Shown here: piece by piece, positions 3,126 to 24,539 of the stretch
Layout: each line of letters starts with the position of its first letter
How positions within the stretch are numbered: the first letter of the stretch is position 1
Assembly (NCBI GenBank): GCA_017455845.1
Contig: JAFSYY010000117.1
Coordinates: 1 to 55,701, forward strand
Direction: 5' to 3'
DNA length: 55,701 nucleotides
Source of the DNA: Prevotella sp.
GTDB lineage: Bacteria > Bacteroidota > Bacteroidia > Bacteroidales > Bacteroidaceae
Made by a program: the position numbers and the translations under genes
The notes under the pieces: generated by a model
Told to the model about the DNA's origin: nothing
Databases searched by the model: none
Seen by the model: the letters and a program-made list of their open reading frames with translations, nothing else

Positions 3126-4475
3126 ATGGATAGAAGAGAATTCCTAAAATATATAGGTATTGGTTCTGCTGCTGCCTTAGCGGCCTGCGCCGGCAAGAAG
3201 AAAAACGAGGAATCAGTCATCGGCGAGCCGCCAGTAGGCCAGATGACCTATAGGACCAACCCCAAGAACAGCGACACGGTGTCTCTGCTGGGCTACGGCA
3301 TGATGCGCCTGCCGCAACAGGCCGACTCTGAGGAGTTTGACCAGGAGATGATCAACCGTGAGGTAGACTATGCCATAGAGCATGGAGTGAACTATTTCGA
3401 CACGTCGCCCGTTTATTGTCGCGGTCTCTCTGAACGCTGCACAGGCATCGCCCTGAGCCGCCATAAGCGTGATAAGTATCTCATTGCCACAAAGTTGTCG
3501 AATTTTGGTGATGCTTCCCATGAGGCCTCCATGAAGATGTATGAAGACTCTTTCAAAGAGTTGCAGGTAGACTATATCGACTACTACCTTCTTCACGCCA
3601 TCGGAGGCAGCATGGATGAGTTCAGGAAACGTTATGTGGACAACGGCATGCTGGACTTCTTGTTAGCGGAGCGCGAGGCCGGACGCATACGCAACCTAGG
3701 GTTCTCGTTCCACGGGCAGAAGGAGGTGTTTGACGAGGTGCTGGCCATGAACGACCAATACGGATGGGACTTTGTGCAGATAGAACTGAACTATCTTGAC
3801 TGGAACTATGCCAACGAGATCAACAGTTTCAATGTGGATGCTTCGTACCTTTATGGCGAACTGGAGAAGCGAAACATTCCAGCCGTCATCATGGAGCCGC
3901 TGCTTGGCGGCCGCCTGGTAAAAGACCTGCCCCAGTATGCCATCAACGAACTGAAACAGCGCGACCCTCAGAAGAGCATCGCATCGTGGGCCTTCCGCTA
4001 TGCCGGCACTCCCCAAGGCGTGCTCACGGTATTGAGTGGCATGACGTTTATGGAACACCTGAAGGACAACCTTGTCACTTACTGTCCGCTGAAGCCCCTG
4101 ACGGAGGAAGAGCAACATTTCCTGGATACAGAGATAGCACAGCAGATGATGGAGATGAACACCATTCCCTGCAACAACTGCCAGTACTGCATGCCCTGTC
4201 CCTACGGCATTGACATACCAGGCATTTTCCTTCATTACAACAAATGGGTTGTGGAGAAGAAACTGCCCGATGACAAGGGCGACCCCGACTACAGGAAGAA
4301 CCGTCGCAACTACCTCATCAGCCTTGACCGCGCCATCGCCAGAGACCGTCAGCCCGACCACTGCATCATGTGCAACCACTGCATTGAGGTGAAGAAGTGT
4401 CCGCAGAAGATTCGTATTCCATTGGAACTGAAGAAGATAGCCGACCAGATGGAAGAGTTGAAGGTTGAAAGTTGA
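3126..4475 (+). CDS. aldo/keto reductase with C-terminal ferredoxin domain, Tat/lipoprotein leader
   Basis: A 449-residue protein starting MDRREFLKYIG: a twin-arginine motif RREFLK, a hydrophobic segment and a lipobox-like LAAC near residue 20, so probably exported and perhaps lipid-anchored. The middle is an aldo/keto reductase barrel with the expected tetrad positions visible as YFDTSPVY (Asp, Tyr), IATKLS (Lys) and YYLLHA (His). The C-terminus adds CNNCQYCMPCP and CIMCNHCIEVKKCP, two Cys groups typical of the ferredoxin-fused subfamily. I chose ATG 3126 over an upstream TTG because it begins directly at the Tat motif. The last six codons and the stop are made from the short repeat described at 4455-4524, so the natural C-terminus may have been altered. 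The substrate is unknown. It probably works with the polyferredoxin upstream. Confidence 0.8.
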   Translation: MDRREFLKYIGIGSAAALAACAGKKKNEESVIGEPPVGQMTYRTNPKNSDTVSLLGYGMMRLPQQADSEEFDQEMINREVDYAIEHGVNYFDTSPVYCRGLSERCTGIALSRHKRDKYLIATKLSNFGDASHEASMKMYEDSFKELQVDYIDYYLLHAIGGSMDEFRKRYVDNGMLDFLLAEREAGRIRNLGFSFHGQKEVFDEVLAMNDQYGWDFVQIELNYLDWNYANEINSFNVDASYLYGELEKRNIPAVIMEPLLGGRLVKDLPQYAINELKQRDPQKSIASWAFRYAGTPQGVLTVLSGMTFMEHLKDNLVTYCPLKPLTEEEQHFLDTEIAQQMMEMNTIPCNNCQYCMPCPYGIDIPGIFLHYNKWVVEKKLPDDKGDPDYRKNRRNYLISLDRAIARDRQPDHCIMCNHCIEVKKCPQKIRIPLELKKIADQMEELKVES

Positions 4476-4524
4476 AGGTTGAAAGTTGAAGATTGAAAAT
4501 TGAAGATTGAAAATTGAAAATTGA
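4455..4524 (+). repeat. tandem 7/8-nt repeat (TTGAAGG / TTGAAAA type) across a gene junction
   Basis: About ten imperfect copies of TTGAAGG, TTGAAAG, TTGAAGA and TTGAAAA run from the last codons of the aldo/keto reductase to the first codon of the HAD hydrolase. They encode the reductase C-terminus ELKVES and its stop, and provide the TTG that must start the next gene. Similar but shorter arrays with the same words occur at 3090-3125, 30465-30510 and, inverted, 30584-30607. Confidence 0.8.
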
Positions 4525-5249
4525 AACAGTATACAGACATTTTTATTGACTTTGACGACACGCTGTACGATACCCACGGCAATGCGGACATAGCACTGCG
4601 TGAGACGTTTGAGTACTTTAACCTCGGTCAGTATTTCGACAATCCGCAAGTGTTTTACGATGACTACTGGCAGACGAACATTGATCTGTGGAGCCGATAT
4701 GCCAAAGGTGAGATAACACGCGACTACCTGATTGTGGAGCGTTTTCGCCATCCGCTCTGCAAGAGCGAAGAATTGAGGGTGAAGAGTGAGACGTCTGCCG
4801 ACGCATTTCAGGCATATACGCTTCACGTGAGTGATGTCTTTCTGGACTACTGTTCGAACAAGCCTGGCGTCGTAGAGGGGGCCCATGAACTAATGGACTA
4901 TCTGAAACAGAAGGCCTACAGGCTCCACATGGCCAGCAATGGCTTCCATGAGGTGCAATACAAGAAACTGGATGCCTGTGGACTTCGTCACCACTTCGAC
5001 AGCATTATCCTCAGCGAGGATGCCGGCATCAACAAGCCCGACCCTCGTTTTTTTGAATACGCCTTGCGGCAGTCTGGTGCCCAGAAAGCGGCCACCATCA
5101 TGATTGGCGACAACTTCCAGACAGACATCCTTGGTGCCAAGCGTGCCGGCTTCGACACCATTTTCTTCAACAGATGGCCTGAGTTTCCAGCCTCAGAGCC
5201 CGTCAACTATGAAGTAACATCGTTAAAAGAAATAATGAACATCCTTTGA
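4521..5249 (+). CDS. HAD-superfamily hydrolase, YjjG-like nucleotidase
   Basis: 242 residues. The nucleophile motif DFDDTLYDT is at 10-18, with a helical cap after it, MASNG (motif II Ser/Thr position), K in INKPDPRFF (motif III) and the acidic GDNFQTDI (motif IV). This order and the ending match the YjjG family that dephosphorylates pyrimidine mononucleotides; the exact substrate is inferred only from family resemblance. No ATG precedes motif I: an in-frame stop is at 4515, leaving only TTG at 4521, inside the repeat array, as start. Inside the cap, residues about 78-95 (SEELRVKSETSAD) are read from GAAGAATTGAGGGTGAAGAG, another repeat-like insert. It is followed 12 nt later by serB. Confidence 0.75.
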   Translation: MKQYTDIFIDFDDTLYDTHGNADIALRETFEYFNLGQYFDNPQVFYDDYWQTNIDLWSRYAKGEITRDYLIVERFRHPLCKSEELRVKSETSADAFQAYTLHVSDVFLDYCSNKPGVVEGAHELMDYLKQKAYRLHMASNGFHEVQYKKLDACGLRHHFDSIILSEDAGINKPDPRFFEYALRQSGAQKAATIMIGDNFQTDILGAKRAGFDTIFFNRWPEFPASEPVNYEVTSLKEIMNIL

Positions 5250-5261
5250 AAAGAAGAAAAC

Positions 5262-6494
5262 ATGAAGAGTGAAGAGCAAATACTGGTACGCATTACCGGA
5301 CAAGACCGCCCGGGCCTGACAGCCTCCATTATGGGTATACTGTCAAAATACGATGCACAGATACTTGACATAGGGCAGGCCGACATCCATTCAACCCTCT
5401 CGCTGGGCATTCTCATACGTATGGACGAGATGCACAGTGGACAGGTTATGAAAGAACTGCTGTTCAAGGCTACCGAACTGGGCGTGAACATTGGTTTCTC
5501 GCCTATCACCGACGATGAATACGAGGAATGGGTGGGGCATCAGGGCAAGAACCGCTATATTCTCATGGTGATGGGCCGCCAGTTGGAGGCCAGGCAGATA
5601 GAAGCCGCCACGCGCGTCATCGCCGACCAGGGTTTTAATATTGATGCCATACGCCGCATGACAGGTCGCAAGAGCATCAAGAACCCCGCCAAGCACATCC
5701 GTGCCTGCATCGAGTTCTCGCTCAGGGGCGAGCCTCGCGACCGTCAGGAGATGCAGTCAGAACTGATGAAACTGTCGCAACAGATGGAGATAGACTTCTC
5801 TTTCCAGAAAGACGACATGTTCCGCAGGATGCGCCGACTCATCTGCTTCGATATGGACTCGACGCTTATTCAGACCGAATGTATTGATGAACTGGCCGAG
5901 CGCAACGGCGTAGGTGCCGAGGTTCGTGCCATCACTGAGAGTGCCATGCGTGGCGAGATAGACTTCAAGGAGAGTTTCACCCGCCGCGTATCGCTACTCA
6001 AGGGCCTCGACATCAGTGTGATGCAGGACATTGCCGAGCACCTGCCCATCACCGAGGGCGTTGACCGCCTGATGACCATCCTGAAGCGCTGTGGCTATAA
6101 GATAGCCATCCTGAGCGGCGGCTTCACCTATTTCGGCGAATATCTGCAACGCAGGTACGGAATCGACTATGTCTATGCCAACGAACTGGAGGTCGACGAC
6201 AATGGCAAACTCACCGGCCGATATGTAGGCGACATCGTGGACGGTCATCGCAAGGCCGAACTCCTGAAACTCATTGCCCAGGTAGAAAAGGTGAACCTGG
6301 CACAGACCATTGCCGTTGGCGACGGTGCCAACGACTTGCCCATGATCAGCGAGGCAGGGCTCGGCATTGCTTTCCACGCCAAGCCCCGTGTCGTGGCCAA
6401 TGCCAAGCAGAGCATCAACACCATCGGTCTCGACGGCGTGCTCTATTTCCTTGGCTTCAAGGACTCGTATCTGGGCGAACAGGGGAAACTGTAG
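5262..6494 (+). CDS. serB: phosphoserine phosphatase with N-terminal ACT domains
   Basis: 410 residues. Residues 5-75 (VRITGQDRPGLTASIMGIL) and about 95-170 form two ACT-like regulatory domains. The catalytic HAD part starts at FDMDSTLIQTECIDELAE (about 197-214, nucleophile Asp and general acid Asp), then SGGFTYF and GDGANDLPM, the serine-phosphate hydrolase signatures. It removes phosphate from phosphoserine, the last step of serine synthesis, in the cytoplasm. ACT domains usually sense amino acids, so feedback by serine is likely. The length agrees with the two-ACT type. The gene follows the HAD hydrolase by 12 nt and probably shares its transcript. Confidence 0.92.
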   Translation: MKSEEQILVRITGQDRPGLTASIMGILSKYDAQILDIGQADIHSTLSLGILIRMDEMHSGQVMKELLFKATELGVNIGFSPITDDEYEEWVGHQGKNRYILMVMGRQLEARQIEAATRVIADQGFNIDAIRRMTGRKSIKNPAKHIRACIEFSLRGEPRDRQEMQSELMKLSQQMEIDFSFQKDDMFRRMRRLICFDMDSTLIQTECIDELAERNGVGAEVRAITESAMRGEIDFKESFTRRVSLLKGLDISVMQDIAEHLPITEGVDRLMTILKRCGYKIAILSGGFTYFGEYLQRRYGIDYVYANELEVDDNGKLTGRYVGDIVDGHRKAELLKLIAQVEKVNLAQTIAVGDGANDLPMISEAGLGIAFHAKPRVVANAKQSINTIGLDGVLYFLGFKDSYLGEQGKL

Positions 6495-6552
6495 GTGTTA
6501 CTTCCCCAAAGTCATTTTTATCATCCAAAAGTTGCGATTTTTTATTGTTTTT

Positions 6553-6584
6553 TTTGCTAGTGTGCCAAAGAATTAGTACCTTTG
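6553..6584 (+). promoter_or_regulatory. promoter of the zinc-ribbon/kinase/AAA/FHA/PP2C operon
   Basis: TTTG (6553-6556), 20 bases, TACCTTTG (6577-6584): both elements match the Bacteroidetes consensus. The leader is about 65 nt. No comparable promoter is visible between the following five genes, which overlap or are separated by 7-34 nt, so one message is likely. Confidence 0.75.
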
Positions 6585-6656
6585 CAGCAAACTTTTCGTT
6601 AAACCGAAAGCAGAGATGAGTAACAGATAGATAAGTAAATTATCAAGACCTATAAA

Positions 6657-7589
6657 ATGACAGACGAACAGACCATAAATTCCGAACTATTGATGCCACG
6701 CGGCCAGGAGTTGCCTCAGGAAGAGTCAGCACCGCAGATGGAGATGCAGCAGCAGCCTCAGATGCAAGCCGCCTATGCCAGGGGCGTTCCGTGTCCGAAG
6801 TGTGGGGCCATCAATGACTCTGATGCCGCCTACTGCTCTTCGTGCGGCGCTTTTCTTCACATGGGCGTTTGTCCCAATTGCGGCAGTGAAATTGACCCTG
6901 ATGCCGACTTCTGCGAGTCGTGCCATCATTACATCAAGCCCAATGTGTGCTCATTTTGCGGCGCATCGTTCAGTGAACACGATATCTACTGTCCAGAATG
7001 TGGACAGCCCAGAGGCGGCATCGTTTGTCCCAACTGCCACACGCTGAACGATTTTTCCTTCTGTAAGCAGTGCGGACAGCCATTGACCGACCAGGCCAAA
7101 GGCATCATGAACCAGATGCGGCAGATGCCGGAGTATAAGGCTCTGATGGCTTTGGCCCAAGAGTATAACGAACTGGAAATGCAACTGCCCTACGCCACGG
7201 AACAGGATAAGAAAAAGGATGAGGCCTTGCAGCAGTTGCGCGAAAGGGTGCTTACCCTCCTGGCTCAGGATGAGGGCAAGGAACATCCCGTGATTAAAGC
7301 CCCTAAGCGCCAGCGTGTCACCAAGGAAGAACTGGCCGAGAACAAGAAGCGCAAGTTGGAACAACTGGCCGAGTTGCTCGACCGCATGGCCATACCAGAA
7401 GTCTCTTCGCCCGCAAGGGTGAGAAACTATGCAATGGCGCAGAAACCGGCCGGCGTGCGACTGGCGTGGATATGCAACTACAAGAAAGCCCTACATTCAA
7501 GTCCCTGTGGATGTGCCAAGCCCCAGATGGGAGGCAAATGGGTTATTCTGGGACATAATTCCAAGCAAGAAATCAAGGACGATAAATAG
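6657..7589 (+). CDS. multi-zinc-ribbon protein, first gene of a kinase/AAA/FHA/PP2C operon
   Basis: 310 residues. After a Q/M-rich start come at least four zinc-ribbon knuckle pairs between about 45 and 145: CPKCG/CSSCG, CPNCG/CESC, CSFCG/CPECG, CPNCH/CKQCG. The middle (150-250) is a charged, probably coiled-coil region. The C-terminal 50 residues contain WICNYKKALHSSPCGCAKPQ, a distinct short Cys-rich module. No enzymatic motif is seen. Zinc-ribbon stacks of this type are often adaptors, and two other genes in the operon also start with a zinc ribbon, which suggests these modules bind one another or a common partner. Cytoplasmic, as there is no signal peptide. The kinase gene starts 7 nt after the stop. 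Confidence 0.75.
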   Translation: MTDEQTINSELLMPRGQELPQEESAPQMEMQQQPQMQAAYARGVPCPKCGAINDSDAAYCSSCGAFLHMGVCPNCGSEIDPDADFCESCHHYIKPNVCSFCGASFSEHDIYCPECGQPRGGIVCPNCHTLNDFSFCKQCGQPLTDQAKGIMNQMRQMPEYKALMALAQEYNELEMQLPYATEQDKKKDEALQQLRERVLTLLAQDEGKEHPVIKAPKRQRVTKEELAENKKRKLEQLAELLDRMAIPEVSSPARVRNYAMAQKPAGVRLAWICNYKKALHSSPCGCAKPQMGGKWVILGHNSKQEIKDDK

Positions 7590-7596
7590 GATATGT

Positions 7597-10500
7597 ATGG
7601 ACGATAATATACTTGACAGAACGATAGCAATGCCAGGCATGCCAAATGCAGACCTGGACTCTACGCAAAGGCCGTCGGCGGCCGCCGAGGGGCTTGACCG
7701 TACGGCCCGTCCGGATGATATGCCCGACACGCTGCCTGGCGCAGACGAAGGTTTTGACCGCACCCTCCGTCCTACAACGGCAATGAATGAGTCGGCAAAC
7801 GAGTCGAAGACAAAGGTGTTCCATTTAAAAGGCAAAGACTACGAGATGGAGACCTGCCTCAGCGACAACTCCGGCGAGGCGCAGGTGTTCCTGGTAAAGC
7901 CCGTCGGAGGGGGAGAAGGGGCGATGGAGAAAGACGGAAGGCCCGCAGAGTATGTGCTGAAACTCTATTACCCCAACTTCGACATCAACAAGAAACTGCT
8001 GCAAGTGGTCCGTTCTTTCCAGTTCGAGATGATTGTCGACCTGATAGACTACGGCAAGACATACGTTGACGGCAAAAGCCGACACTATGAACTGATGGAG
8101 TATCTGAGAGGCGGTACGCTGAAAGACGTGAAACTGAATGGCGACTACAACCGTTTCCGCCGCATCGCTTTGCAGGCAGCCGCTGCACTGGCCTATTGCC
8201 ACAGGAACAACCTGCTTCACAAGGACGTGAAGCCAACGAACTTTTTCTTCCGCGACGAGGCGCAGCAGGAACTCGTGTTGGGCGACTTCGGCATCTCGTC
8301 TATCCAGGAAACGGAAGGCAAGTCGTTTCGCACCACACAGGCCCGCACACCTATCTATGCCGCCCCGGAGATGTACACCGATGTGATTGACGGCGAAGTG
8401 GAGATAACCTTTGCCGCCGACTTCTATTCGCTGGGTATGACACTCTTCACCTTGTGGCTTGGCGAGAACCCGATGGGAGCCAATGAACGGCTGATCATGA
8501 AGCAGAAAAACGAAGGCCGTCTGCCTCGTCTTAATGAGTTGCCCGACCCCGTGAGGCAGATAGTGCAGGGCCTGACGGTTGTGAACAGCATTACACGATG
8601 GGGATATAACGAGGTGGAGCGCTGGTTCCAGGGCGATAGTGTGGAAGTAGACCTGTCGTCGCCCTTCCTTCGCTATAAGAGTTTCATTGTGGACCCGGAA
8701 CATAACCTGGTTGCCGAGAATGTGCACGAACTGGTGCCCATGCTGTTGAGCCACCAGAAACTGGGCATGAACTACTTGTATGGCGGCCGTATAGTGAAAT
8801 GGCTCGAGGCAAGCGGCAATATCAAACTGTCGACGCTCATCAAGGAGATTGTCGGCAAGAGGTATACTGCCGACCAGCGTGCCGGCCTTATAGCAGCATG
8901 CTATGCCATGGAGCCGACGCTGAACTATACCGACGTTAACGATGTGGAGTGCGAGGATGTGTCGAACATCGCCCTCTCGCTATTAATGAATCAGGAGAAA
9001 TATGCTATCTTGCTGCAAAACGCCAACGACCCGCTGTTTATCTGGCTGGAGATTAGAGAGAAATGCAATGTAAACAGGTTGCGCTCCTATTTCAAGCCGG
9101 AGGGGGACAACAGGATTGCGGTGCTGCGGATGGTGTATGAACTGGACAGCAGCATGCCCTTCCTGCCGAAGATGCCGTCGTCGACGGTTGAGGAGATTGC
9201 CCGTTGCTTCGGCTATGGGGAGATGCAGGAAGACAACTGGCGTTCGTTGTGCGACGGCCGCTTCCTGTCTTGGCTCTATTCACATGCCGACCTGCCCGAC
9301 TGCGAAGCCGTGAAGCAATTGACTGATGGCAAGCCGTACTCTAGGTCGATGGCCTACAAGGTGCTTTACAGGCTGCTGCCAGCCGTAGGCTACGACCTCA
9401 AGGAGGCATGTACGCCAGAGGGTGTTGGTGAATTACTGGCACACGAGATGGTGAAGTCGCAACATCTCACCGAGGAGGAACTGTCGACAGCCATGCAGGA
9501 TTACATCAATCCTGAAGGACGCTTCTTTTATTATGCGAAGTTGCACGGATGGAACCAACTCATTGCAGAGGCCAAACGCTGCTTTGACCTGAAGAGTGAG
9601 GAAAACCGTGAGCGCCTCAGTGCCTACGACCTGCATACAGCCCTCTACCGTTTCTGTCGCATTCTGGGTGTGACACCTTCCTATTTCCTTCCCAACGGCT
9701 CCTCGCTGCCACATGCCGGCTATCTGGATGTGCAAAGGTATCCCCAGATACGTTCAGAGATACACAACGGCTCACTGGTGCAATGGAGTTCGGTGTTCTA
9801 TCATGAGAATCCGAACAGTGACTTTGCCGAAGAATACAGTTATGAGCGTGAACTGGAGCACTGGGTGAAGGACCTCGGGCGCCTGGACCCCCAGCAGGTG
9901 TACTACCGCCGCTATATGAAGGCCATGGAAGAGACGGGCGAACGCGTTAGTGATGTCCAGAAACAGTGGCAATCGGCACAGTACAAGGAAAAGGGTGTCA
10001 AATACTGCTTCTTCGCACTTTGTGCAATATGGGCTCTGATGGTATTGCTCTTTGGCCTGGACGACCGCAGTTACATCTTCAAGCATCATATCATGACCAT
10101 TGTGCTGCCGTTAGGCGGCATGACGGGTATCATCGTTGGCACACGGTCCTACCTGAAAGGCTATGGAGCCATGATGTCGTTCGTTTTCGGAGGCCTGGGA
10201 TTACTAACCTCGTTCTTACCTTATTATGTATTGCGGTATATCGACGGCCACAGTCCTTCGCTGTTCCATCCAGGTGTCATACTGTTTACCGTACTCTATG
10301 CCCTGGCAGCATGGCTCACCGACTTCAGCCGCGACCAGAATACCGATAGCAAGTTTATTAATGAGACCCTGAAAAGACAAGACGTCAAGTCTACGCTTCT
10401 TGAGCCTCTTTACTACACATTCAAGAGCAAGTCGCAGCGCTATAAGGCATCACATTTCGGGGTGCTGGACGAGATTGACGACCAACTGCACTCCGTATCG

Positions 10501-10635
10501 GGCGAGTCGGTCATCCATTATTTCCTGTGGTCGCTGCTGGCTGTAATCATGATATTGGAACTGTGTCTGTTCAGTCCCAAGATGATAGGGTGGAAACAGA
10601 CTCCTAATGCAACTCAACAAGAGAACGTGAAATGA
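7597..10635 (+). CDS. membrane Ser/Thr protein kinase with N-terminal T-x-R-P repeats
   Basis: 1012 residues from ATG 7597; the frame is open further upstream but overlaps the previous gene and lacks support. Residues 1-60 carry repeats LDRTIAMP, LDSTQRP, LDRTARP, FDRTLRP with candidate phospho-Thr at 9, 23, 36 and 56. A Hanks-type kinase domain follows (about 75-360): ATP-binding Lys122 in VLKLYY, HKD-V-K-P-T-N at 208-215 (Lys replaces the usual Arg of HRD), DFG at 230-232 and an APE motif near 257. The glycine loop SGEAQVF is degenerate. A long region without recognised motifs (360-800) leads to about five membrane spans between 800 and 1000. I infer a membrane-anchored kinase that may phosphorylate its own N-terminal repeats as docking sites for the FHA protein encoded downstream. 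The stop overlaps the AAA start by 4 nt (ATGA). Confidence 0.85.
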   Translation: MDDNILDRTIAMPGMPNADLDSTQRPSAAAEGLDRTARPDDMPDTLPGADEGFDRTLRPTTAMNESANESKTKVFHLKGKDYEMETCLSDNSGEAQVFLVKPVGGGEGAMEKDGRPAEYVLKLYYPNFDINKKLLQVVRSFQFEMIVDLIDYGKTYVDGKSRHYELMEYLRGGTLKDVKLNGDYNRFRRIALQAAAALAYCHRNNLLHKDVKPTNFFFRDEAQQELVLGDFGISSIQETEGKSFRTTQARTPIYAAPEMYTDVIDGEVEITFAADFYSLGMTLFTLWLGENPMGANERLIMKQKNEGRLPRLNELPDPVRQIVQGLTVVNSITRWGYNEVERWFQGDSVEVDLSSPFLRYKSFIVDPEHNLVAENVHELVPMLLSHQKLGMNYLYGGRIVKWLEASGNIKLSTLIKEIVGKRYTADQRAGLIAACYAMEPTLNYTDVNDVECEDVSNIALSLLMNQEKYAILLQNANDPLFIWLEIREKCNVNRLRSYFKPEGDNRIAVLRMVYELDSSMPFLPKMPSSTVEEIARCFGYGEMQEDNWRSLCDGRFLSWLYSHADLPDCEAVKQLTDGKPYSRSMAYKVLYRLLPAVGYDLKEACTPEGVGELLAHEMVKSQHLTEEELSTAMQDYINPEGRFFYYAKLHGWNQLIAEAKRCFDLKSEENRERLSAYDLHTALYRFCRILGVTPSYFLPNGSSLPHAGYLDVQRYPQIRSEIHNGSLVQWSSVFYHENPNSDFAEEYSYERELEHWVKDLGRLDPQQVYYRRYMKAMEETGERVSDVQKQWQSAQYKEKGVKYCFFALCAIWALMVLLFGLDDRSYIFKHHIMTIVLPLGGMTGIIVGTRSYLKGYGAMMSFVFGGLGLLTSFLPYYVLRYIDGHSPSLFHPGVILFTVLYALAAWLTDFSRDQNTDSKFINETLKRQDVKSTLLEPLYYTFKSKSQRYKASHFGVLDEIDDQLHSVSGESVIHYFLWSLLAVIMILELCLFSPKMIGWKQTPNATQQENVK

Positions 10636-13600
10636 TTTGCGAACAATGTCATAAGGAAAACAGGAGCATTGCCAAGTTCTGCAAGTGGTGCGGACAGCCC
10701 CTTGTCTCTCAGCATGTGCTTGACAAACTGGTGGGCCTGACAGATGTGAAGGCACAGTTGAAGACGATTGTCGACACCTATACCTATCTGAGGTCGAGAA
10801 AGGATATCGTCACGGTACGCCTGTCGGTGAACACCATTATCATGGGCGAGACAGGCACGGGAAAGACAGCCCTGGCCGATATTATCCGCGACTATTTCTT
10901 CCAGCACAAGATTATCGACAAGCCCAAACTGACCATGGTCGATGCTGTGGACTATCAGCGCTTCGTCGACAAGTGGGATGACAATGTGAAGAAAGCCAAG
11001 GACGGCATACTATTCTTCGACAACGTACAGAAACTGCTGCCCGACAAGTATTCCAACCAGGTGAACCCGCTCGATAAGTTGTTTGTCGAGATGGACAAAT
11101 GGGATGGCACGCCGATAGTCATCCTCGCCGGCCTTCGTAAGGGATTCGAGGAGTTCCTTGACAACAACCCGGCAGTGAAAAACCGCTTCAAGTACATGTT
11201 CCAACTGCCAACGCCCAACTATCAGGAGTTGTGCGACATCGTGAAACAGGAACTGCGCAACAAGTACGGTCTGACAGAGTTTACGGAAGAGGCAGACAAA
11301 CAACTGACGCGCTATTTCAAATATCAGATCAAGATCAAGGACGAGACCTTCGGCAACGCCCATCTGGCGATGAAGACTGCCGAGGACATCTTCTCGTCGT
11401 TTATCAGTCGCGGTGCTTCCAGTTCGGTTGTCGAGCGCGACGACATCAAGGGTTATGTGCCCGAAGAGCGTTCGCTCGACGACATCCTGAAGGATATGGA
11501 CTCCTTCATCGGCATGAACGAGGTGAAACAGGCCGTGCGCGAGATGGCATACGCAGTGCAGAACAGCATGCAGAGGGCCGAGCGCGGACTGGGTGTTGCG
11601 CAGAAGATGTCGATGCATACTGTGCTGACGGGTAATCCCGGTACGGGTAAGACCACCGTCGCCCGCAAACTGGGCGAGATACTGGCAGCCATAGGCTATC
11701 TGGACAGCGGCCATGTGGTGGAGGTAGACCGCTCGAAGATGGTGTCACCTTATCAGGGCGAGACGCCGAAGTTGGTCAATCAACTGTGTGACAAGGCCAT
11801 GGGCGGCATCCTCTTTGTCGACGAAGCCTATACCCTTGCCCCTATGAGCCAGGCCGGCGACCGCGACGTGCAGGGCACCCAGGCTCTGGAGACGCTGATG
11901 AAACGCATGGAGGACGACCGCGACAAGTTTGTGGTCATCGCCGCCGGCTACCGCGCCGAGATGGACAACCTGTTCCGCATCAATCCAGGCGTGCGCAGCC
12001 GTTTCAACTATTTCCTCAACCTGGAAGACTACAACCCCGACGAGTTGTTCGAGATTATGCAGGTCTTTGCCCGTGGCAAACAGTATATGTTCTCAGAGAA
12101 AGCCGAAGCGCTGACCCGCAAGATGATAGGTGAACTCTATGCCACCCGCGACAAGGACTTTGCCAACGGACGCACCATGCGCCAGTTGTTCGACGAGATG
12201 TGCAAACGCCAGGCCCGCCGTCTGCAGGAAGGCGACATGTCGCAGATGAGCAACGAGCAAATGATGACCTTCGAGGAAGAGGATGTTCCATACGAGGCAC
12301 CGAAGGCCGTTGACTGTTCCGAGTGTCTGAAGAAACTCGACGGCATGGTAGGTCTCGACTCGGTGAAGAAAGAAATAGCCAATCTCACAGCCTTCCTCAC
12401 GCTTCAGATCAAGCGCGGCGAGACGAACACCTTCCAGGGCAAGCACTATGTGTTTACAGGTAATCCTGGCACAGGTAAGACTACGGTGGCACGTATCATG
12501 GCCGATGTCTTCAAGACCCTCGGCATCCTCTCGCGAGGACAACTGGTGGAGGCCGACCGCTCAAAACTGGTGGCAGGCTTTGCCGGGCAGACGGCCATCA
12601 AGACCAACCAGTTGATCGACTCGGCCATGGGCGGTGTACTGTTTATCGACGAGGCCTATACGCTGAAGTCCAATGACCAGGACAGTTTCGGCAGCGAGGC
12701 TATCGACACGCTGTTGAAACGCCTGGAGGACGACCGTGGCAAGTTTATCTGCATCGTGGCAGGCTATACCAACCAGATGCACGACTTCATCGACTCCAAC
12801 CCGGGTCTGAAGAGCCGTTTCACGCAAACCATCCATTTCGAAGACTATAAGCCCGAGGAACTGACGCAGATATTCATCAATATGGCTTCATCGAAGAAGT
12901 TTGAACTCGACGATGACATGAAGGCTGCCGTGCGACGGCAGTTCGACCAGATCTATCTGCGACGCGACAAGAACTTCGGCAATGCCCGTGAGGTGAGGCG
13001 TGTGTTCGACGCCACCGTGGAGCGCCAGAGCGAACGACTGGTGAAGCAGATGAGCCAGCCCGACGTGTCGGTGTGTGACGATGATGCCAGTGGCTTCCTC
13101 TTCGACGATATGTACAAGTTGCTGGTGGAAGACCTGCCAATGGCCCAGGCCACGGCAGCACGTTCACTCGACGAGGTGCTCAACGAACTGGATGACTTCA
13201 TCGGCATGCGCACAGTGAAGAACGCCATCCGCCGGTTGGCCGTACAGAGCATGTTCGTCAAACAGCGTGCCGCCATGGGTGCCGGCAATGTGCAACAACT
13301 TACCATGAACTTTATCCTCACCGGCAACCCCGGTACGGGTAAGACCTCGATAGCACGCAAGATGGGCGAGGTGCTCCAGGCCATGGACGTGCTGCCAACA
13401 TGCAATGTGGTGGAAGCCAGCAGGGCTACCCTGGTGGGCAAGTATATGGGTGAGACACCAAAGATAGTCAACTCCATGTGCGACAAGGCCATGGGTGGCA
13501 TCCTGTTTATCGACGAAGCCTATACGCTTAGCGACCAGAACGACCAGTATGGCAAAGAGGCTGTCGACACGCTGATGAAACGCATGGAAGACGACCACGG

Positions 13601-13976
13601 CAAGTTCGTGGTCATTGCCGCTGGTTATCAGGACAAGATGGAGGAGTTCCTGCTGATGAACGCCGGACTGGCCAGTCGCTTCACGCATAAACTACATATC
13701 GAGGACTACAGTGAAGAAGAACTGCTGGCCATCTTCAAGAAAATGGCCGAGAAAGAACAGTACACACTCTCGCCGGCTGCCGAGTTCAAAGCATTGGATG
13801 TGATACACCACATGGTGAAGACCAAGGACGAGACCTTTGGCAATGCCCGCGAGATTCGCAACATGCTCAACGAGACCATCCAGCAACTCTCCATCCGCGT
13901 GTCGCAGATGCCGGCCGACCAGGTTTCCAAGGAAACATACCAACTCATTCAGCCAGAGGACATCCATGAGCATTGA
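10632..13976 (+). CDS. giant protein with four tandem AAA+ modules (CbbX/EccA/SpoVK type) and zinc ribbon
   Basis: 1114 residues. A zinc ribbon (CEQC at 3-6, CKWC at 17-20) is followed by four AAA+ modules with Walker A motifs near residues 72 (GETGTGKT), 333, 610 and 897 (GNPGTGKT each). Modules 2-4 have Walker B plus arm ILFVDEAYTL or LFIDEAYTL, the signature of the CbbX/CfxQ group that also contains SpoVK and the ESX protein EccA. Module 1 has LFFDN, lacking the catalytic Glu, so it may bind but not hydrolyse ATP. Each module ends in an arginine-finger-like stretch (PGVRSRF, PGLKSRF, AGLASRF, PAVKNRF). Members of this group usually form hexamers and remodel partner proteins; four modules in one chain is much longer than the usual one or two. 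Translationally coupled to the kinase. The client is unknown. Confidence 0.85.
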   Translation: MICEQCHKENRSIAKFCKWCGQPLVSQHVLDKLVGLTDVKAQLKTIVDTYTYLRSRKDIVTVRLSVNTIIMGETGTGKTALADIIRDYFFQHKIIDKPKLTMVDAVDYQRFVDKWDDNVKKAKDGILFFDNVQKLLPDKYSNQVNPLDKLFVEMDKWDGTPIVILAGLRKGFEEFLDNNPAVKNRFKYMFQLPTPNYQELCDIVKQELRNKYGLTEFTEEADKQLTRYFKYQIKIKDETFGNAHLAMKTAEDIFSSFISRGASSSVVERDDIKGYVPEERSLDDILKDMDSFIGMNEVKQAVREMAYAVQNSMQRAERGLGVAQKMSMHTVLTGNPGTGKTTVARKLGEILAAIGYLDSGHVVEVDRSKMVSPYQGETPKLVNQLCDKAMGGILFVDEAYTLAPMSQAGDRDVQGTQALETLMKRMEDDRDKFVVIAAGYRAEMDNLFRINPGVRSRFNYFLNLEDYNPDELFEIMQVFARGKQYMFSEKAEALTRKMIGELYATRDKDFANGRTMRQLFDEMCKRQARRLQEGDMSQMSNEQMMTFEEEDVPYEAPKAVDCSECLKKLDGMVGLDSVKKEIANLTAFLTLQIKRGETNTFQGKHYVFTGNPGTGKTTVARIMADVFKTLGILSRGQLVEADRSKLVAGFAGQTAIKTNQLIDSAMGGVLFIDEAYTLKSNDQDSFGSEAIDTLLKRLEDDRGKFICIVAGYTNQMHDFIDSNPGLKSRFTQTIHFEDYKPEELTQIFINMASSKKFELDDDMKAAVRRQFDQIYLRRDKNFGNAREVRRVFDATVERQSERLVKQMSQPDVSVCDDDASGFLFDDMYKLLVEDLPMAQATAARSLDEVLNELDDFIGMRTVKNAIRRLAVQSMFVKQRAAMGAGNVQQLTMNFILTGNPGTGKTSIARKMGEVLQAMDVLPTCNVVEASRATLVGKYMGETPKIVNSMCDKAMGGILFIDEAYTLSDQNDQYGKEAVDTLMKRMEDDHGKFVVIAAGYQDKMEEFLLMNAGLASRFTHKLHIEDYSEEELLAIFKKMAEKEQYTLSPAAEFKALDVIHHMVKTKDETFGNAREIRNMLNETIQQLSIRVSQMPADQVSKETYQLIQPEDIHEH

Positions 13977-14010
13977 GCAAAAATCGTAAATCAGTAAATT
14001 ATAAATAACT

Positions 14011-14586
14011 ATGATAGTTTGTCCAAACTGCAAAGAAGAGATAGAAGACGACTCACATTTCTGTGACCAATGTGGACAGGTGCTCCTATATTGTGAGTCT
14101 TGCGGACGCGTGGGCATGGGTCGGCGGTGCACCTCGTGTGGCGGCCTGATGCTTTCGGCATCGGATTATCAGAACCGACAGTCTGCCGAAAAAGGTGTGT
14201 CTACTTCCTTGTCTGTGAGTTACATGTCGCAGAGGATGCCAATGGACGCAGTGACGACAGGCCGACCGTCACGGTCGCCGATGATGATACCCCAGTTACA
14301 ACTCTACAACGACTCGCTGGGCATCCGCATCGTGGGTGTCAATGGCGCAGTCATCGGGCGGAAGCAGGGTCCATACGTGCAGTTCTTCCAGCAGCAGATG
14401 TATGTGTCAGGGGCCCATGCCCAGTTGCTGTACAAGGCCGATACAGGCTGGTGTATCGTAGACAAGCACTCGTCGAACGGCACCAAACTCAACGACCATA
14501 AGTTACAGCCCGACGTGGAGATGTCGCTCAAGAACGACGACATCATCTGTCTGGCTAATGTAGTATTAAAAGTCAGTGTAAGATAA
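14011..14586 (+). CDS. zinc-ribbon and FHA domain protein
   Basis: 191 residues. Zinc-knuckle pairs CPNC/CDQC and CESC/CTSC occupy 4-45. A linker rich in Ser/Met/Pro follows. The C-terminal 90 residues are a forkhead-associated domain: IGRKQGPY (conserved Gly-Arg), VSGAHAQL (Ser and His that bind phosphate) and SSNGTKLN (the S-x-NGT loop). FHA domains bind phospho-threonine peptides, so this is the likely reader of the kinase encoded upstream, whose N-terminus offers four T-x-R-P sites. Cytoplasmic. It lies 34 nt after the AAA gene and 18 nt before the PP2C gene. Confidence 0.85.
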   Translation: MIVCPNCKEEIEDDSHFCDQCGQVLLYCESCGRVGMGRRCTSCGGLMLSASDYQNRQSAEKGVSTSLSVSYMSQRMPMDAVTTGRPSRSPMMIPQLQLYNDSLGIRIVGVNGAVIGRKQGPYVQFFQQQMYVSGAHAQLLYKADTGWCIVDKHSSNGTKLNDHKLQPDVEMSLKNDDIICLANVVLKVSVR

Positions 14587-14604
14587 AAGCCTGAAGAAAA
14601 GGAT

Positions 14605-15351
14605 ATGTCACATTTTCATATTACGGCATCATGTCGTGTAGGATGCGTCAGGACCAACAATGAGGACATGATTCTGGTTGGTGATCATTTGCTACGCAAC
14701 AACAAATGCAGCGTAGACATGGACACTGAGAAGACAGAACGTCTGATGATTGCCGTGGCCGACGGCATGGGAGGTCATTCCTATGGAGAGGTGGCCAGCG
14801 AACAGACACTCAGCAACCTCAGTTTTTACTTTGGCGACCTGCCCGGCAACATGTCTGCAAGCGACTTCGAGGAGGCAATGTATGGCTGGCAGAAGAGCAT
14901 CTGCCTGGCTATTACTTCCAAAGGGCAGATAGACCCTGCCTATCGTAATATGGGTACCACGCTTGTGGGTCTGGCCTACTATGCCGGCCGGTTCTTCTGG
15001 CTTAACTGTGGCGACAGCCGTCTGTACTGGTTGCACCAGGGACAGTTGAGGCAAGTCACCACTGACCATTCCATCGACAGCCTGATGGGGCGCGAGAAAC
15101 ATTCCAGCCAGATATACAACTGTATAGGCGGCGGGTGTAAAAACAGTTATCTGGACATCGGCATCATAAACCAGCCGATAGAGCCAGGCGATGTGCTGAT
15201 GCTCTGCAGCGACGGGCTCACCGACCTGGTGAGCGATGAGGAGGTGCGGCGCCTGCTTGACAGCGGCTTTGACGCTGATGCCCTTTGCGACGCTGCCGAG
15301 GATGCCGGTGGAAGAGACAATATTTCGGTTGTCGTTGTTCGTATAGTGTAA
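14605..15351 (+). CDS. PP2C-type Ser/Thr protein phosphatase
   Basis: 248 residues, the usual length of a stand-alone bacterial PP2C (PppA/Stp type). The metal-binding motifs are intact: NNEDMILV near 16-24, VADGMGGHSYGE near 50-60, MGTTLVGL, NCGDSRLYWL, CSDGLTDLV and GGRDNISVVV. It hydrolyses phospho-Ser/Thr with Mn or Mg. No membrane segment, so cytoplasmic. It ends the signalling operon and is the natural antagonist of the kinase encoded at 7597. The following metA gene starts 14 nt later and could be co-transcribed by read-through, but is functionally unrelated. Confidence 0.92.
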   Translation: MSHFHITASCRVGCVRTNNEDMILVGDHLLRNNKCSVDMDTEKTERLMIAVADGMGGHSYGEVASEQTLSNLSFYFGDLPGNMSASDFEEAMYGWQKSICLAITSKGQIDPAYRNMGTTLVGLAYYAGRFFWLNCGDSRLYWLHQGQLRQVTTDHSIDSLMGREKHSSQIYNCIGGGCKNSYLDIGIINQPIEPGDVLMLCSDGLTDLVSDEEVRRLLDSGFDADALCDAAEDAGGRDNISVVVVRIV

Positions 15352-15365
15352 AAAATGTTTAAACC

Positions 15366-16283
15366 ATGCCATTAAGACTACCTGATAGACTGCCTGCCAT
15401 AGATATTCTGAAAAATGAGAATATCTTTGTCATGGACGACTCGCGGGCCCATGCTCAGGACATACGCCCGCTGCGGATTGTCATCCTGAACCTGATGCCT
15501 CTGAAGATCACTACCGAGACCGACCTGGTGCGCCTGCTGTCGAACACGCCTCTGCAGATGGATATCAACTTCATGAAACTGAAGAGCCATACACCCAAGA
15601 ACACACCCATAGAGCACATGATGATGTTCTACCGCGACTTTGAGTCGATGCGCAGTGAGAAGTTCGACGGCATGATCGTCACCGGTGCACCCGTAGAGAC
15701 GATGGACTACGAGAAGGTGACCTATTGGGACGAGATTGTGGACATCTTCGACTGGGCACGCACCCATGTCACCAGTACGCTCTATATCTGCTGGGCAGCG
15801 CAGGCTGGTCTCTATCATTATTATGGCGTACCAAAGTACCCGTTGGAGAAAAAAATGTTCGGCATCTTCAGCCAACACTCCCTGCAACCGCAACTGCCCA
15901 TATTCCGTGGCTTTGACGACTGCTTCATGATGCCCCATAGCCGACATACAGAGGTGAGACGCAACGACATCCTGATCCATCCGGAACTGTCGCTCATTGC
16001 TGAGTCGGAGGATAGCGGTGTCAGCATCGTGATGGCTCGCGGCGGTCGTGAGTTCTACATCACAGGCCATCTGGAGTATGCACCCAACACCCTTGACAAT
16101 GAGTATAAGCGCGACTTCGGCGTGAGGGATGATGTGGAGTTGCCCCGCAATTACTATCGGAACAACGACCCGTCGCAACCGCCTTTAGTGACCTGGCGTG
16201 CGCACGCGAACCTTTTTTATAATAACTGGATCAACTACTACGTCTACCAGGAGACTCCTTACGATATCAACAAGATTGAGTAG
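15366..16283 (+). CDS. metA: homoserine O-acetyltransferase (MetA family)
   Basis: 305 residues, standard MetA length. The catalytic Cys142 lies in ICWAAQAG, and the His in a later MARGGREFYITGHLEY stretch completes the family's triad. Residue 111 is Glu (TGAPVE), the position that in MetA enzymes distinguishes acetyl-CoA users (Glu) from succinyl-CoA users (Gly), so I predict O-acetylhomoserine as product, despite the common succinyltransferase label. It activates homoserine for methionine synthesis in the cytoplasm. A row of short TTGAG/GTGAG words follows (16284-16345) before the next gene. Confidence 0.93.
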   Translation: MPLRLPDRLPAIDILKNENIFVMDDSRAHAQDIRPLRIVILNLMPLKITTETDLVRLLSNTPLQMDINFMKLKSHTPKNTPIEHMMMFYRDFESMRSEKFDGMIVTGAPVETMDYEKVTYWDEIVDIFDWARTHVTSTLYICWAAQAGLYHYYGVPKYPLEKKMFGIFSQHSLQPQLPIFRGFDDCFMMPHSRHTEVRRNDILIHPELSLIAESEDSGVSIVMARGGREFYITGHLEYAPNTLDNEYKRDFGVRDDVELPRNYYRNNDPSQPPLVTWRAHANLFYNNWINYYVYQETPYDINKIE

Positions 16284-24251: not shown

Positions 24252-24326
24252 TGGTAGTCGATAGGGGAATCGAACCCCTATGCCAAGATTGAGAATCTTG
24301 TATCCTAACCATTAGATGAATCGACC
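24252..24326 (-). tRNA. tRNA-Glu (anticodon CUC), CCA encoded
   Basis: Cloverleaf is complete: acceptor GGTCGAT/ATCGACT (first pair G-U), anticodon stem CAAGA/TCTTG with loop TTCTCAA giving CTC, T-loop GGTTCGATT. The discriminator A is followed by a genome-encoded CCA at 24254-24252. The 72-nt body is identical to the copy at 24375-24446. Confidence 0.93.
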
Positions 24327-24374
24327 TAATAGAGTCTTTAATTGAAGAATATCTGATTTATATCCAGACTTCAG

Positions 24375-24446
24375 TAGTCGATAGGGGAATCGAACCCCTA
24401 TGCCAAGATTGAGAATCTTGTATCCTAACCATTAGATGAATCGACC
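24375..24446 (-). tRNA. tRNA-Glu (anticodon CUC), second copy, no encoded CCA
   Basis: Identical in all 72 body positions to the copy at 24255-24326. Here the discriminator A is followed by CTG, so CCA must be added after transcription. Confidence 0.92.
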
Positions 24447-24452
24447 GGAGTG

Positions 24453-24539
24453 CGGAAGCTGGGGGATTCGAACCCCCGGTACGGGAACCCGTACGGCAGT
24501 TTAGCAAACTGCTGGTTTCAGCCACTCACCCAAACTTCC
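24453..24539 (-). tRNA. tRNA-Ser (anticodon GCU)
   Basis: Acceptor GGAAGTT/AGCTTCC, anticodon loop TTTGCTAAA giving GCT, and a long variable arm (CGTACGGGTTCCCGTACG) as expected for serine. CCA is not encoded. First gene of the three-tRNA unit; 6 nt separate it from the following tRNA-Glu. Confidence 0.92.

Follow-up and report, generated by a model that had tools for sequence, protein, structure and literature searches.

A conserved five-gene unit of scattered Bacteroidota: a candidate phosphothreonine switch with a tandem AAA+ protein

The first 55,701 bp of the Prevotella sp. contig JAFSYY010000117.1 (assembly GCA_017455845.1), referred to here as the window, carry a block of five plus-strand genes for a zinc-ribbon protein (ZnR), a membrane Hanks kinase (KIN), an AAA+ protein (AAA), a protein with an FHA domain and a PP2C phosphatase. 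We find that these five genes are a conserved unit, which is present in scattered Bacteroidota. We give about even odds (probability roughly 0.5) to the reading that the block is a self-contained phosphothreonine switch and that it controls, at the inner membrane, a remodelling motor made of tandem CbbX-type AAA+ modules. What is new here is that the kinase has an N-terminal tail with threonine-rich, lineage-specific repeats and that the same motif ends the FHA proteins of one clade, as if both were built for PknG-GarA-like docking.

Results

The five genes form a conserved unit

We gathered 29 loci in Bacteroidota (loci are denoted by L and genomes by G), no two of which have kinases that are identical over the C-terminal 300 residues. 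Seven loci are cut by a contig end (L055, L056, L058, L065, L159, L230 and L251), and 22 are free of contig ends (the window, L051-L054, L057, L059-L064, L071-L074, L158, L160-L162, L239 and L252). The genes for ZnR, KIN, AAA and the FHA protein lie in the same order on one strand in all 22 uncut loci, an arrangement far beyond chance, and chance neighbourhood is therefore ruled out. The PP2C gene adjoins the block in 20 of the 22, that of L162 being read in the adjoining stretch L242. Extra genes inside the block are an AAA fragment in L064, a 386-aa open reading frame (ORF) in L073, a SUKH gene in L162 and two small ORFs in L239, where the kinase is also split over two ORFs, the second of which gives a weak profile match alone. 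Thus, the neighbourhood proposed in the first-pass annotation of the window is a conserved one, and the possibility that its genes usually occur apart was checked and failed, i.e. the genes stay together.

Of the 201 genomes examined in the family, 14, the window's own included, have a full-length KIN relative (E <= 1e-20), and a profile of the C-terminal domain of ZnR (ZnR-C; 7308..7586) picks the very same 14. Because 11 of the 12 rows of this profile come from carriers, the informative part of the result is its absence from the other 187 genomes. AAA_lid_6 is present in 67 of the 201 genomes, and, by our reading of the match table, the only genomes with at least two copies in one open frame are the 14 carriers and G340, the contig of which starts partway through the AAA gene and runs on into the FHA gene, so that the block is cut by the contig end. 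Among 149 genomes sampled from the order, a kinase match at E <= 1e-5 is present in 39, but only three of these, again with the window's own genome, qualify as carriers of KIN by the length or strength of the match (G021, residues 19-952; G012, residues 115-504, on a short contig). ZnR-C was detected in 7/395 genomes of a phylum sample, 6/197 of the class of G463 and 6/393 of the order, these three samples overlapping one another. Outside the phylum, the one ZnR-C match in 48 genomes, which we attribute to chance, was weak (E = 2.2e-4) and lay in a 45-aa frame; these genomes came from 50 of 76 non-orthologue loci and were picked for kinases rather than at random. Among the matches listed, at least four orthologous contigs are named, as Prevotella, Prevotellaceae or Bacteroidales. 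The distances of the five proteins correlate (r 0.77-0.91), values for which there is no housekeeping control and which we do not treat as proof. ZnR-C marks the block more specifically than any other part of it.

The kinase has a tail of repeated threonine motifs

KIN (1012 aa; 7597..10635) was identified by Pfam (Pkinase, 95.3 bits; cut-off 31.7), alignment, hydropathy and catalytic residues; the mechanical ORF opens at 7429 within the ZnR gene, and the plausible start is 7597. The kinase domain spans approximately residues 75-350 and is followed by a long conserved region without a Pfam match. Hydrophobic segments lie near residues 803, 889 and 969 in the window kinase, and three to five such segments are found in the six kinases examined. 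Here and below, the residues followed are those that matter in kinases, FHA domains and PP2C phosphatases. Lys122, Asp210, Lys212, Asn215 and Asp230-Phe-Gly are invariant in 28/28 kinases; the glycine loop is loose, with Gly93 in 26 of the 28.

The tail ahead of the kinase domain comprises 40-164 residues in the 28 kinases examined, and residues 1-74 in the window (7597..7818). Threonine makes up 9.9% of the tails and 4.8% of the rest of the kinase, and serine 8.2% and 6.1%, respectively. The window tail contains the repeats LDRTIAMP, LDSTQRP, LDRTARP and FDRTLRP, i.e. the type [LF]D[RS]Txx(P), and none of 500 shuffles was equally repetitive around threonine; 15 of the 28 tails exceed their shuffles in this respect (p<0.05). 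The repeats are lineage-specific, with DKTVR, DRTxRP and SGTQRP types: the L064 tail has DKTLKP five times and DKTL seven times, the L252 tail SGTQRP five times and GT[QK]RP seven times, and the tails of L159-L162 have between three and five copies of [DE]KT[VI]R each. The pattern [DE]xTx[RK], which was chosen with the tails in view, occurs 46 times in 17 of the 28 tails (shuffle mean 3.9, maximum 12), at a density of 20.8 per 1000 aa compared with 0.54 outside the tail. In a scan of seven genomes with a DNA pattern for D-K-T-x-R, matches that could have pointed to a client motif stayed below the reversed control in each genome, and the clusters that could be placed (G413, G417 and G608) lie at the kinase tail. 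From their sequences, the tail repeats are plausible predicted docking sites, once phosphorylated on threonine, for the FHA protein, and the enrichment of the motif in the tails is suggestive, and only suggestive, of docking of the PknG-GarA type.

The FHA protein and the phosphatase keep their key residues

The FHA protein (191 aa; 14011..14586) consists of a double zinc ribbon, a flexible linker and a C-terminal FHA domain (Pfam FHA, 45.8 bits, cut-off 20.7; DZR, 30.4 bits, cut-off 27.3). In an alignment of 24 such proteins, Arg117, Ser133 and His136 are present in all and Asn156 in 23. All five FHA proteins of a distant clade (L158, L160, L161, L162 and L239) end in a motif of the tail type, which is found at the end of none of the 19 others; by eye, looser echoes of the motif are seen in the FHA linkers of L060, L061 and L063. 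The PP2C (248 aa; 14605..15351) matches Pfam PP2C_2 (45.8 bits; cut-off 24) and reaches 147 bits with NCBIfam Stp1, below the cut-off of 230. Its metal-binding aspartates are intact; Asp21, Asp53, Asp137, Asp203 and Asp238 are kept in 21/21 phosphatases and Asp207 in 20. Kinase, FHA protein and PP2C are thus encoded in one operon with their key residues kept across the loci, which supports, at the level of sequence, the earlier proposal that the kinase would write, the FHA protein read and the PP2C erase the phosphate mark.

The same genome contains a second, unrelated signalling cluster on contig C78 of G000 (L067:12472-19594 and L068:9881-11257), with four strong kinase matches, zinc-ribbon/FHA proteins, one zinc-ribbon protein bearing PRPTV repeats, and a long-tailed PP2C.

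The AAA protein has one degenerate and three canonical modules

AAA (1114 aa; 10632..13976) has an N-terminal zinc ribbon followed by four modules of the CbbX/EccA/SpoVK type, with Walker A motifs at residues 72, 334, 610 and 898; Pfam finds four AAA and four AAA_lid_6 stretches, i.e. four lids, which place the protein in this family. The zinc ribbon begins 25 of the 26 AAA proteins scanned, and L230 is cut. Module 1 of the window protein reads FFDN, with asparagine in place of the Walker-B glutamate, and the later modules read DEA. Therefore, the four modules of the first-pass annotation are all present, but the first lacks the Walker-B glutamate and three are canonical. The Walker-B position of module 1 is not glutamate in 25 of 28 proteins and is Asp-Asn in 18; L062, L063, L064, L073, L074, L239 and L251 have other residues, L065 keeps Asp-Glu, and the position was not located in L060 and L061. 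The module total is three in L058, L060, L061 and L239, five in L160-L162 and four in the other uncut proteins, including L062, which was counted by length, its first Walker A being unmatched.

AAA exceeds the cut-offs of the NCBIfam models for spore_V_K (787.8; cut-off 422.95), EccA (698.4; 466.65) and CbbX (634.7; 459.25). These scores are inflated by the four modules, so that no single equivalog can be assigned and plain orthology to CbbX or EccA is rejected. The nearest chains in a sequence search of solved structures are CbbX and EccA1. The likeness to the CbbX/EccA/SpoVK family lies in the pairing of AAA with AAA_lid_6, and the AAA protein of the block differs in its three to five tandem modules per chain, its N-terminal zinc ribbon and its degenerate module 1.

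ZnR (310 aa; 6657..7589) was identified by Pfam DZR/Zn_Ribbon_1 matches (DZR, 72.6 bits; cut-off 27.3). Alignments show clustered CxxC zinc ribbons, a variable middle and a C-terminal finger with the pattern W-x-C-N-x5-H-x2-P-x2-C-x2-P-x2-G-G-x-W. In sequence searches of solved structures with the block proteins, the hits were confined to kinase domains, CbbX and EccA1; ZnR-C gave no convincing match, and none better than E = 0.01.

Promoter, flanking genes and mobility of the block

A plus-strand element at 6553..6584 matches TTTG-N20-TACCTTTG, which we take to be the consensus of a Bacteroidetes-type promoter; the window has seven matches to this pattern compared with 0.26 expected in shuffles. 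The stop-to-start gaps between the five genes are 7, -4, 34 and 18 bp, the KIN and AAA genes overlapping by 4 bp. The initial description of a promoter and five tightly packed genes was borne out, each gene matching Pfam above cut-off.

Upstream of the window block lies a serB-like gene (ACT and HAD domains, Pfam), and downstream, also on the plus strand, lies metA (homoserine O-succinyltransferase; 15366..16283; Pfam HTS, 443.8 bits); the neighbours are housekeeping genes. The intergenic stretch between PP2C and metA (15352-15365) is 14 bp, and the corresponding gap is 7-35 bp in L051, L053, L054, L071 and L072. Given these short gaps, the block transcript may extend into metA and the block may drive it. 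Farther away in the window, three tRNA genes lie on the minus strand (24255-24539; Rfam).

Nine genomes of the same genus without the block were checked, eight of which have metA. In six of the eight (L231, L232, L233, L235, L237 and L238), a gene for an M13 peptidase lies approximately 0.1-0.4 kb from metA with no called gene in between. An M13 peptidase gene also precedes the block in L051-L053; the upstream neighbour of the window block is a different gene. Of the remaining two relatives, L236 has other ORFs filling 3.9 kb before metA (3739-7023; ORFs of 528 and 153 aa among them), and L234 has metA and no M13 peptidase gene there. With the usual neighbours side by side in six of eight block-free relatives, the block comes and goes as a whole in this lineage, and we conclude that metA marks the insertion site and is not a member of the block.

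At L239 (8918-19991), transposase genes flank the block on both sides; at L074 (133-8812), an integrase gene lies approximately 2 kb upstream and a relaxase gene farther out, together with a TerB-like gene below cut-off. Flanking genes named by Pfam are metA and those for U32 peptidase, M13 peptidase, ABC protein, transposase and relaxase. KIN had matches in 91 plasmid and 2 phage records, none of which covers 80% of the query; in viral contigs, 17 stretches matched the ZnR-C pattern and none was confirmed as a relative.

Discussion

We propose that the block works as follows. A signal sensed via the C-terminal region of KIN would activate the membrane kinase, which would then autophosphorylate the repeated threonine motifs of its own N-terminal tail. 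The FHA protein would dock on the tail phosphothreonines and become phosphorylated itself, in one clade at the C-terminal motif of the same type. The zinc-ribbon regions of the FHA protein, ZnR and AAA would unite the three in one complex, in which the degenerate first AAA module may serve as a fixed platform while the remaining modules pull on a client; finally, PP2C would strip the phosphates and reset the switch. This sequence of events is built on the conserved unit, the intact active-site residues, the motifs of tail and FHA protein and the degenerate module, all of which are observed; that the AAA motor acts on a separate client is our inference.

PknG is a TPR kinase that controls 2-oxoglutarate dehydrogenase, and to our knowledge its system with GarA has no AAA motor and no zinc-ribbon adaptor. 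In the system of Actinomycetota, autophosphorylated threonines in a disordered N-terminal extension of PknG anchor the FHA protein GarA/OdhI (PMC8546545); the likeness proposed for the block consists of a Hanks kinase the threonine-phosphorylated tail of which recruits an FHA phospho-target. The kinase of the block differs in being a membrane protein, often with tandem repeats in its tail.

Several observations weigh against this mechanism. The repeat test fails in 13 of the 28 tails, and the [DE]xTx[RK] pattern was selected after inspection of the tails. Only 4 of 27 tails repeat threonine more than any other residue, so that the whole motif, and not threonine alone, is repeated. The FHA protein and ZnR of the window have no match to the tail motif pattern. 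The PP2C gene is absent beside L052, L059 and the cut locus L230, where the FHA gene is otherwise intact, so that the switch either can do without its eraser or is served by a distant one. Joint matches to kinase, FHA and PP2C with no AAA match occur at 10 of 110 other loci, many of which are short, and the phospho-switch alone is therefore not distinctive. Finally, joint assembly of ZnR, AAA and the FHA protein through their zinc ribbons is suggested by analogy only, from the N-terminal ribbons that they share.

A possible, though doubtful, alternative is that the block serves in conflict, defence or the stress response, with variable accessory proteins encoded beside it that the switch and AAA would act on or be armed by; this reading is compatible with the mechanism above and differs from it in purpose. 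SUKH and DUF1963 are toxin-immunity families. SUKH proteins lie beside the blocks of L160 (53 bits) and L162 (26.5; cut-off 25.4), with a match below cut-off at L159 (19.8; cut-off 27); DUF1963 is found beside L064 (95 bits) and L074 (77.6; cut-off 23), and DUF4062 (39.6 bits; cut-off 24.7) forms the N terminus of a 1020-aa protein that follows PP2C in L073 (10302-13364). A weak hint of conflict or stress comes from these neighbours, which were noticed among flanking proteins picked by hand for domain searches. The mobile-element genes at L239 and L074, where the TerB match is below cut-off, and the patchy presence of the block (14/201 genomes in the family and 7/395 in the phylum sample, with an empty site in six of eight relatives) point in the same direction, as does the match of the L160 SUKH protein to the PADLOC candidate PDC-M40A (E = 4e-7), although this was the only match to PADLOC among ten accessory proteins. 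By contrast, the window block lies among housekeeping genes, and no gene of the SUKH, DUF1963 or DUF4062 type was noticed at the Prevotella loci, the flanks of which were not systematically searched for domains. PADLOC gave no match to the FHA protein or PP2C, matched KIN over the kinase domain only (mad6, E = 2.3e-30; PD-T4-6) and AAA over the AAA modules only (IetA, E = 3.5e-31), and gave one weak DndD match to ZnR; KIN also falls far short of the MAD6 kinase of MADS defence (NCBIfam, 64.6 bits; cut-off 460), and the searches of phage, plasmid and viral sequences described above yielded neither a KIN match covering 80% of the query nor a relative of ZnR-C.

Control of a secretion apparatus or of methionine synthesis is far less probable. 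The threonine phosphorylation pathway of the type VI secretion system (T6SS), PpkA-Fha-PppA, has the same three-part logic of membrane kinase, FHA reader and PP2C eraser, an analogy that was drawn in the first-pass annotation. However, no T6SS genes were recognised beside the block, and the VipB/TssC sheath family PF05943 was not detected in any of 70 genomes, 23 carriers among them, with a control that was positive in E. coli only and leaves the sensitivity in Bacteroidota unproved; the analogy is thus unsupported and T6SS control very improbable. Among type VII secretion systems (T7SS), Gram-positive variants (T7SSc-T7SSj) carry kinase, PPM phosphatase and FHA parts in one cluster, and many T7SSa clusters also have EccA, but the variants have an FtsK-like ATPase and WXG100 proteins at their centre (PMC11217815). 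The matches shown for the block proteins (for AAA, the best 25 of 70) include neither WXG100 nor an FtsK/EssC ATPase, and we recognised no gene for WXG100, an FtsK-type ATPase or another secretion component in the neighbourhood gene lists, most flanking genes of which were not searched for domains. That the block is a local regulator of methionine synthesis with MetA as client is, if anything, less probable still: the short distance from PP2C to metA in the window and five other loci would favour it, but the distant blocks (L060-L064, L158-L162 and L252) were not seen beside metA in their gene lists, inspected by eye, and metA keeps its place without the block in six of eight relatives, for which reasons we reject metA as a general client. 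Two further systems were compared. The TerY-P triad joins a vWA protein, TerY, to a kinase and a PP2C. The DO-GTPase/GAP1-N2 associations share an active kinase, PP2C and zinc ribbons with the block (PMC7159879). These systems have vWA and GTPase partners, whereas the Pfam matches shown for the proteins of the block include neither a vWA domain nor such a GTPase.

The phosphothreonine switch with its AAA+ motor also allows a more speculative extension, which we consider rather improbable as a whole. The tail repeats of the kinase and the motif of the FHA protein itself may co-vary in each lineage as a private phosphothreonine "barcode" ([DE]KT[VI]R, SGTQRP, DRTxRP or PQPTAA) that would insulate one AAA+ motor from the other kinase/FHA circuits of the cell; swappable SUKH, DUF1963 and DUF4062 proteins would take the part of clients or of guards in conflict with other bacteria or phages, and the whole would be a previously undescribed system of Bacteroidota. 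In open-access full-text literature, which could miss papers published elsewhere, no description of this five-part make-up was recognised.

Phosphothreonine switches of bacteria have mostly been studied where the output is known. The block described here is a deep, all-or-nothing unit across Bacteroidota, the output of which appears to be a tandem AAA+ motor, and its readable putative docking motif allows a direct test of the pairing between kinase tail and FHA protein.

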